Assembly (NCBI GenBank): GCA_005883905.1
Contig: VAYD01000140.1
Location: 12,910-23,214, forward strand
DNA: 10,305 nt
Direction of reading: 5' to 3'
From: Actinomycetota bacterium
GTDB taxonomy: Bacteria > Actinomycetota > Thermoleophilia > Solirubrobacterales > Solirubrobacteraceae
In this document: positions 4,867 to 6,016 of the stretch, one piece after another
Layout of the letters: every line of letters starts with the position of its first letter
How positions within the stretch are numbered: the first letter of the stretch is position 1
Program-made: the position numbers and the translations under genes
Notes under the pieces: generated by a model
Database searches by the model: none
What the model was told of the DNA's origin: nothing
The model's input: the letters and a program-made list of their open reading frames with translations, nothing else

Positions 4867-5462
4867 TGCAGCCAGTCACGATCGTCATTGGCCGCTTCGA
4901 GGACCTGATCGGCCGCGGCCTGCGCTCGCTGCTCGCCGAGGACCCGAACATCGACCTGCTGGCCGGCGACGTCGAGCTTGACGCGTTCGATGCGATGCTG
5001 AGAGAACACGCGCCCAAGGTGGCGATCATCAACTTCGGCTCCTTGCGCACGCCGGTGGAGGTCAACCGTCTCCACACCGCGCACCCCGAGACCCGATTGC
5101 TCGTGCTGGCCAGCCGCCCGACGCCGTCGGAGTGCAACCAGATGCTCGCCTTCGGCGCGACCGCGTGCCTGTCCAAGAAGACCGAGGCGCGCGACATCCT
5201 CAACGCGATCCACCTCGCCTCGCGCGGCCTGCACGTGCTGCCGCGCACGAGCGGCGACTATGCACCCGAGCCGCTCGGGCCGGAGCTGCTGACCCCGCGC
5301 GAGGCCGACGTCCTCGAGCACCTGCAGGCCGGCCGCTCGAATGCCGAGATCGCGCTGGCGCTCTCGGTGAGCGTCGAGACGGTCCGCACGCACCGGCGCA
5401 ACATCTACCGCAAGCTCGGCGTGCGCACGCGCCGCGAGCTGGCGTCACTCTCGCACGCGTGA
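4866..5462 (+). CDS. LuxR/NarL-type transcriptional regulator with a degenerate receiver domain
   Basis: This 198-aa protein has a response-regulator layout: receiver-like domain (about residues 4-126) and C-terminal LuxR HTH (about 140-197). The HTH is well conserved: LTPREADVLEHLQAGRSNAEI, then VSVETVRTHRRNIYRKLGV. The receiver has the NarL-family fold pattern (RGLRSLLAEDPNIDLL, FGATACLSKK), but the phospho-acceptor Asp is Asn56 (VAIINFGS in place of the usual VVLLDLRMP). The acidic pair after strand 1 is replaced by Arg10-Phe11; only Lys104/105 remains. Asp phosphorylation is therefore unlikely, and the protein may act by ligand, redox (Cys90, Cys101) or abundance. I chose GTG 4866 over GTG 4806: the earlier start adds a 20-residue tail encoded across the hairpin. 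The stop overlaps the MerB-like gene by 4 nt (GTGA), making that gene its likely partner or target. Confidence 0.88.
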   Translation: MQPVTIVIGRFEDLIGRGLRSLLAEDPNIDLLAGDVELDAFDAMLREHAPKVAIINFGSLRTPVEVNRLHTAHPETRLLVLASRPTPSECNQMLAFGATACLSKKTEARDILNAIHLASRGLHVLPRTSGDYAPEPLGPELLTPREADVLEHLQAGRSNAEIALALSVSVETVRTHRRNIYRKLGVRTRRELASLSHA

Positions 5463-6016
5463 CCGAGCGCGAGCTCGCGCTGCGCCGGATGATCTTCGAG
5501 GCCTTCGCCGACACGGGCGAGCCGCCGCCGGTGGACGACGCCGCCACCCTGCGCTCGCTCGCCGCGCAGCACGTCGTCGTGCTCGACGAGGCGGATCGGA
5601 TCGTGATGGCGCACCCGTTCGCCACCCACGACGACGGTGCGCGCGTCGAGGCCCGGGGACACACGTGGCGCGGGAGCTGCGCGTGGGACGCGTTCGGGAT
5701 CGTCGCCGCGCTCGGCCTGGACGAGGCGATCGTCACGGACGCGAGCGGCATCCGCATCGCGTTTCGCAAGGGCCGTCCCGCCGACCACGCCGTCTTCCAC
5801 GTCGCGGTCCCCGCGGCGCAGTGGTGGGACGACATCGGCTTCACCTGAGCGACGATGCGGCTCTTCCGGTCGGAAGAGGAGATCGACGGGCCGCGCGGCG
5901 GCGTGATGACCACCGAGCAGCTGCACGAGCTGGCGCAGCGCTGGTACGGCGACCGCCTTGATCCGGGCTGGCGCCCGAACCTTCTGGTCCCTCGCTCGCT
6001 GATGGAGAAAGCCTGA
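5459..6016 (+). CDS. MerB-like (organomercurial lyase family) selenoprotein; in-frame TGA at 5846-5848 read as selenocysteine
   Basis: Read through the TGA, the frame gives 185 aa with Sec at residue 130 and stops at TGA 6014-6016. Residues 1-60 resemble the N-terminal HTH-like region of the alkylmercury lyase family (LRRMIFEAFADTGEPPP, then HVVVLDEADRIVMAHPF). The core has GSCAWDAFGI with Cys74 and Asp77, matching Cys96-x-x-Asp99 of MerB. WWDDIGFT-U-ATMRLFRSEE aligns with MerB SFCCHVHFFAS, placing Sec130 on catalytic Cys159. After the TGA the frame stays family-like (LHELAQRWYGDRLDPGW). Translation ending at the TGA would give 129 aa lacking the third catalytic residue. GTG 5459 lies in the regulator's stop overlap, so translation is probably coupled; no Shine-Dalgarno sequence is evident. 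No merA, merR, merT or merP lies nearby, so mercury as the natural substrate is unproven. Alternative: a Cys-to-stop error or a decayed gene. Confidence 0.82.
5846..5878 (+). promoter_or_regulatory. Selenocysteine UGA codon with bacterial SECIS-like hairpin
   Basis: TGA (5846-5848) is followed by 12 nt and then CTCTTCCGGTCGGAAGAG (5861-5878). CTCTTCC (5861-5867) pairs perfectly with GGAAGAG (5872-5878), leaving the 4-nt loop GGTC (5868-5871). The loop begins 19 nt after the UGA. In E. coli fdhF the SelB-recognised hairpin likewise presents GGUC in its apical loop, about 18 nt after its UGA. The bulged U of the fdhF stem is not seen here. The stem lies inside codons for Leu-Phe-Arg-Ser-Glu-Glu; the uncommon GAA among the two Glu codons gives a Watson-Crick pair where GAG would give a G-U wobble. 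Confidence 0.8.

Follow-up and report, generated by a model that had tools for sequence, protein, structure and literature searches.

MerB-type selenoproteins are already on record. In the available part of PMC4525700, Cys96, Asp99 and Cys159 are given as the conserved active-site residues of the organomercury lyase MerB. Two selenoprotein lists contain, in the portions available, an 'Alkylmercury lyase MerB-like protein' (PMC9312934) and an 'Organic mercuric lyase MerB2' (PMC7435645). The accessible text of PMC13188914 lists SaoL, a MerB-like organometallic lyase (NF040728), as a predicted selenoprotein with the motif CU and calls its operon Sec-assisted organometallic. MerB is not named in the main text of PMC5029168 or PMC2398784, and MerB and related words are absent from PMC12013277. 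Among the matches listed, the literature shows nothing on an actinobacterial clade of such proteins or on a double-Sec AAA+ fusion. SaoL and its model NF040728 are reportedly owed to Haft and Gwadz in 2023. The initial annotation of the locus described here could not say whether selenocysteine forms of this family were recorded. They are, as SaoL/NF040728 and 'MerB2' in the available parts of reviews; the actinobacterial clade, whose score with the SaoL model falls far short of the cut-off, and the double form within it are new as far as our searches reach.

The window analyzed here is a 10,305-nucleotide stretch from a metagenome assembly that is fragmented into 556 contigs and 64.75% complete. 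It contains a MerB-like gene at 5459-6016 that carries an in-frame TGA at the column of the second mercury-binding Cys of organomercury lyases; selenocysteine (Sec) is very probably inserted there, with a predicted role for a hairpin at 5861-5878. Its GTG start at 5459 overlaps the stop codon (5460-5462) of a gene for a LuxR-type regulator, and the TGA, codon 130, is followed by 55 codons and a stop. The main features are:

5459-6016, forward strand: MerB-like read-through open reading frame of 185 amino acids with GTG start and predicted Sec130 (frame, Pfam match, homologues)
5678-5680, forward strand: encodes Cys74, which aligns with MerB Cys96 and does not vary in alignment A3 (alignment)
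5687-5689, forward strand: encodes Asp77, which aligns with MerB Asp99 and does not vary in alignment A3 (alignment)
5846-5848, forward strand: in-frame TGA predicted to encode selenocysteine, aligned with MerB Cys159 (frame, alignment)
5861-5878, forward strand: SECIS-like hairpin with arm CTCTTCC (5861-5867), loop GGTC (5868-5871) and arm GGAAGAG (5872-5878)
6014-6016, forward strand: true stop codon TGA of the MerB-like gene (no strong match of the hairpin model there)

The in-frame TGA in this MerB-like gene is confirmed. As originally described, the family-like frame from 5459 runs unshifted through it to a normal stop, and the Pfam MerB match (PF03243, residues 58-164, 48.4 bits against a cut-off of 27, E 1.1e-12) spans it. 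The expectation that naive gene calling would end the protein at 129 amino acids also holds, that being the length of the gene callers' product in the protein database (P0002, 5 members on 5 contigs).

The window protein retains the catalytic columns of MerB, with TGA at the third. When a profile built from 38 family members is aligned to MerB2 (5c17) and to MerB (3f2g and others), Cys74 falls on the first catalytic Cys, residue 130 on the second, and Asp77 on the catalytic Asp, a position that is Ser in the 5c17 alignment. In alignment A3, a subset of the collected sequences consisting of 22 TGA loci, seven Cys forms and nine truncated proteins, Cys74 and Asp77 are invariant, column 130 is covered by 29 rows and is Cys or TGA in every one of them, and all 38 members match PF03243 at E <= 0.001. 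The initial claim that MerB-family proteins have Cys at the point of the TGA is thus borne out, residue 130 aligning with MerB Cys159. With Cys96 and Asp99 present as Cys74 and Asp77 and the Cys159 column occupied by TGA, the MerB triad is complete only if the TGA is read as Sec. Overall, the likeness to MerB lyases (PF03243; 5c17, 3f2g, 1s6l, 3f0p) consists of a score over the Pfam cut-off and of Cys74, Asp77 and the predicted Sec130 in catalytic columns, with MerB2 5c17 being the best solved relative (E 6.1e-18 with the family profile). In contrast to these lyases, the window protein has TGA/Sec at the Cys159 column and a shorter C-terminus, shows low sequence similarity (33.7 bits for 3f2g) and has no mer genes seen beside its gene. 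Its C-terminus is about 16 residues shorter than that of most relatives and lacks their GLTGPFWQL-type tail.

SaoL, like the window protein, is a MerB-related predicted selenoprotein according to the available text of PMC13188914, but the window protein scores 12.4 bits against an NF040728 cut-off of 140, and the CU motif listed for SaoL differs from Thr129-Sec130. A true SaoL over the cut-off was found in none of 396 genomes of the phylum. The 'MerB2' and 'MerB-like' entries (PMC7435645, PMC9312934) are likewise predicted MerB-type selenoproteins; however, their accession WP_238493467.1 is SaoL in the newer list, and no actinobacterial clade or SECIS is given for them in the parts of these sources available.

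In the mechanism that we propose, SelB with Sec-tRNA(Sec) would bind the CUCUUCC-GGUC-GGAAGAG hairpin and insert Sec130. The Sec130 selenolate and the Cys74 thiolate would hold a soft metal or organometal, for example R-Hg+, and the proton for the carbon leaving group would come from Asp77, a part ascribed to Asp99 in MerB. The metal would then be handed to small thiols or another protein. Sec insertion, lyase activity and substrate are all predictions here, and the putative lyase role of the window protein is suggested by homology together with the retained active-site columns. No mer genes were found among the window genes scanned or among 20 open reading frames flanking 11 TGA loci, which are immediate neighbors only and comprise diverse genes with no shared neighbor seen. 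An organomercury substrate is thus suggested by homology, and we give it, as against another organometal or a metalloid, a chance somewhat below even. A like chance falls to a selenoprotein that is not an organomercury lyase, in which Sec130 and Cys74 would serve another organometal, a metalloid or a sensing role. The missing mer neighbors, the window protein's shorter N-terminal part and lack of a C-terminal tail, the existence of an AAA+-fused branch and the placement of the related selenoprotein SaoL in a Sec-assisted organometallic operon (PMC13188914, available text) are in keeping with such a role, whereas the retention of all three MerB catalytic columns, the third as TGA, argues against it.

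The TGA at 5846-5848 is very probably read as selenocysteine, as initially predicted; this reading is supported by Cys/TGA pairing among relatives, purifying selection, a hairpin confined to TGA forms and the presence of selA, selB and selD. At the DNA level, TGA lies exactly at the residue-130 column in 31 loci and TGC or TGT in 14. A search of 396 genomes of the phylum with the SaoL model added 19 TGA loci from families other than that of the window. In total, the column holds TGA in 50 loci and Cys in 16 near-homologue loci, so that the proposed check for Cys or TGA at the same position in related genomes came out positive. A search of the class (399 genomes drawn evenly from a larger group) found a relative in 39 genomes, with 41 matches that contain exactly one TGA (31) or are stop-free (10) and never carry TAA or TAG; a scan of named genomes gave 15 loci, and the 31 TGA and 14 TGC/TGT loci come from these two sources together. 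Named relatives are mostly from Actinomycetota, which, with the grouping of the window gene beside that of Solirubrobacter soli, suggests that the source genome is actinobacterial. One TGA locus (L023) belongs to an Acidobacteria MAG. The reading frame is broken in the assemblies of three of the 19 added TGA loci (L113, L117 and L120), and likewise in that of L065. The protein database, where codons are not visible, contains 723 matches; 118 of the 120 homologues listed measure 107-137 amino acids, with 84 at exactly 129, and the other two have full length. Metagenomes contain two full-length Cys proteins near the window protein (P0078, 54%; P0089, 51%). A relative on a plasmid of Paraburkholderia sp. 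PGU19 (L140, ca. 2974-3663) was set aside as a Cys form with an intact MerB-like frame; the gene table of this record has three features, so the absent annotation of the frame says nothing. Two MerB relatives in a single genome (L107 and L131, G444) have CCC at the second catalytic site, and a TAG is present within one distant match (G447:C630).

The segment after the TGA is under purifying selection. Over 99 close pairs out of 378, mean pN/pS is 0.36 before the TGA, 0.41 after it and 0.44 beyond codon +14. A pseudogene or true early stop, with TGA ending a 129-residue protein and the remainder decaying, would agree with gene callers stopping there and with the short length of 118 of the 120 listed homologues. 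We consider it highly improbable, given that a single column is always TGA and never TAA or TAG in 50 loci, that homologues have Cys there, that a hairpin follows in 47 of 49 loci and that mean pN/pS stays at 0.41 downstream. A phylogeny built on 67 rows, of which 43 have one TGA, 22 have Cys and two have two TGAs, needs three changes to explain these labels as compared to a mean of 20.7 when labels are shuffled. The backbone of the tree is weakly supported, and the window groups with Solirubrobacter soli (100/99). Partial rows (L061, L064, L065, L107, L113, L117 and L126) are left out of this tree, and L106 repeats L038.

Selenocysteine insertion at the TGA is further supported by a hairpin at a fixed position behind it. 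The hairpin CTCTTCC-GGTC-GGAAGAG has 7 base pairs and a 4-nt loop that starts 19 nt after the TGA. It falls within the bSECIS constraints given in the available text of PMC13188914, section 5 (loop of 3-9 nt, stem of 4-16 bp, early G, spacing of 16-37, MFE <= -7.5), with an energy of -9.1 kcal/mol for the hairpin alone. A strict rule of a GG-first loop on a stem of at least 5 bp at spacing 19 holds for 47 of 49 TGA loci, none of 16 Cys loci and none of 957 in-gene control codons, the exceptions among TGA loci being L022 (4-bp stem and wider loop) and L052 (loop GATC). L117, which has an insertion, was left out of this test; on the minus strand, its TGA is without the usual hairpin, and by eye the insertion forms a different stem of 8 bp whose loop begins with G, again at spacing 19. 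A looser rule captures 43/49 TGA loci, 2/16 Cys loci and 185/957 control codons and is consequently weak by itself in such GC-rich genes. The 45-nt fold after the TGA is unexceptional by energy (-16.9; z -1.42; 17 of 200 shuffles equally good). Pairing within the stem is found in 93.5% of cells over 48 sequences versus 90.3% after shuffling, a level reached by none of 500 shuffles; L037 (too short) and L117 (insertion) are left out of the pair counts. Four stem pairs are changed on both sides, a number matched in 3/500 shuffles, and the covariation score of the hairpin over these 48 sequences is reached by 0/500, with slid structures scoring worse. Because relatedness by itself can lift sequences above such shuffles, the covariation represents support rather than proof. 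Codons within the hairpin are locked, with Arg encoded by CGG in 29/30 cases (background 0.286), Ser by TCG in 30/31 (0.356) and Leu by CTC in 22/22 (0.674); in L055, Trp replaces Arg and the GGTC loop is retained. Cys-form relatives (Amycolatopsis, Nocardioides and others; L024-L036) share family and column, with TGC or TGT, but are without a SECIS-type hairpin and have other codons and residues after the Cys. The element model has no match at the gene in Cys forms. An Rfam scan of the TGA site returned no SECIS family, and two other Rfam matches at the site were taken as chance.

The source assembly encodes most of the machinery for selenocysteine insertion. The check for Sec genes proposed with the initial annotation was answered in part: selA (468 bits, cut-off 267.9), selD (375, cut-off 125) and selB (304, cut-off 242) all exceed curated cut-offs, with selA adjoining selB on contig C529 and selD located on C18, but tRNA-Sec (selC) was not found in this 64.75% complete MAG. 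Of nine weak RF01852 matches in the source genome, the eight examined are ordinary tRNAs according to ARAGORN. In the isolate Solirubrobacter soli, a TGA gene that is 59% identical occurs together with tRNA-Sec and with selB, which scores 315.6 bits. Across 33 TGA-form genomes, ARAGORN detects tRNA-Sec in 18, including S. soli and the Acidobacteria MAG, and 25 pass the RF01852 cut-off. All 12 of the weaker RF01852 matches examined in relatives are tRNA-Ser, and five others lie in genomes that already have tRNA-Sec. SelA shows a modest association with the TGA form, being present in 22/31 TGA genomes versus 171/368 others (p 0.007) and, among high-quality genomes only, in 6/7 versus 102/208 (p 0.06), both uncorrected for relatedness. 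Completeness predicts 5.3 TGA genomes lacking selA, while nine of 31 lack it (P = 0.06). Eight of the 31 have neither selA, tRNA-Sec nor any SelB match above about 200 bits; matches at 196-198 bits were not counted because EF-Tu may score in this range.

Two further readings of the TGA were considered. A split gene, with a stop at the TGA and a restart at an ATG three codons on to give two polypeptides that assemble, draws on the presence of ATG at codon +3 in 43 of 48 sequences of alignment A4 and on gene callers starting 95 of 119 listed AAA+ relatives at this point. It is nevertheless most unlikely, as codon +3 is ATC in the other five sequences (L023, L114, L116, L128 and L129), homologues have a catalytic Cys at the position of the stop, and the hairpin with its locked codons and the Sec genes would be left unexplained. 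Suppression or a changed code placing some other residue at the TGA is scarcely credible, having the open frame and nothing further in its favor, while homologues have Cys at this position, a hairpin of the Sec type follows the codon, the assembly contains Sec genes, and TGA is the usual stop in the window, ending 9 of 10 genes checked including the MerB-like gene itself, which speaks against a changed code.

Beyond single selenocysteine sites, a side branch of the family carries TGA at both catalytic Cys columns. L122 (TGA at 1360 and 1162, minus strand) and L125 (TGA at 1738 and 1936, plus strand) have TGA at both MerB catalytic Cys columns and Glu in place of Asp, and their second TGA is followed by an AAA+ domain. 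The two are 81% identical, come from two MAGs of one family and show pN/pS of 0.10 between the TGAs and 0.14-0.21 elsewhere. Evidence for a hairpin is good at the second TGA. Evidence at the first TGA, judged by eye, is weak, with a short hairpin in L125 (loop GUC about 18 nt on) and a loop about 13 nt on in L122, outside the published range. The double form occurs in 2/24 genomes of its class, and the putative double-Sec reading is based on these two DNA loci. In the protein database, P0122 has Cys at the second site and starts just behind the first. The 95 of 119 other listed relatives (P0123-P0241) mentioned above begin MN(L/I/F)FRSE(E/D)H, at a point three codons past the second site; most of the 119 are AAA+ proteins of about 358 amino acids, seen at the protein level only, and some records are named Chloroflexota/Anaerolineales. 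Many of them may be front-truncated selenoproteins. No match was found among plasmids when a portion of the double-TGA protein served as query.

We think it rather likely that these genes together form a phylum-wide, mostly unannotated MerB-family selenoprotein branch in which one standard SECIS dictates LFRSEE, with a double-TGA, AAA+-containing side branch that would act on organometals as a selenolate-selenolate lyase, or else handle metals, and whose front half is lost in current annotation. If so, gene callers split a good part of the MerB-like diversity of the phylum, and inventories of genes for methylmercury degradation could overlook it. Selenium holds mercury more tightly than sulfur does, and the natural occurrence of a single active site in a Sec and a Cys form would offer a direct test of why selenium is used for a metal that it grips firmly, with the double-TGA branch making a still stronger case for that test.

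Downstream of the MerB-like gene, at 6063-8295 of the window, the frame of a GAF/HisKA sensor kinase (6063-7637) is interrupted, and from 7375 on its ATPase/receiver part is found in a different frame, indicating a possible frameshift in this region.
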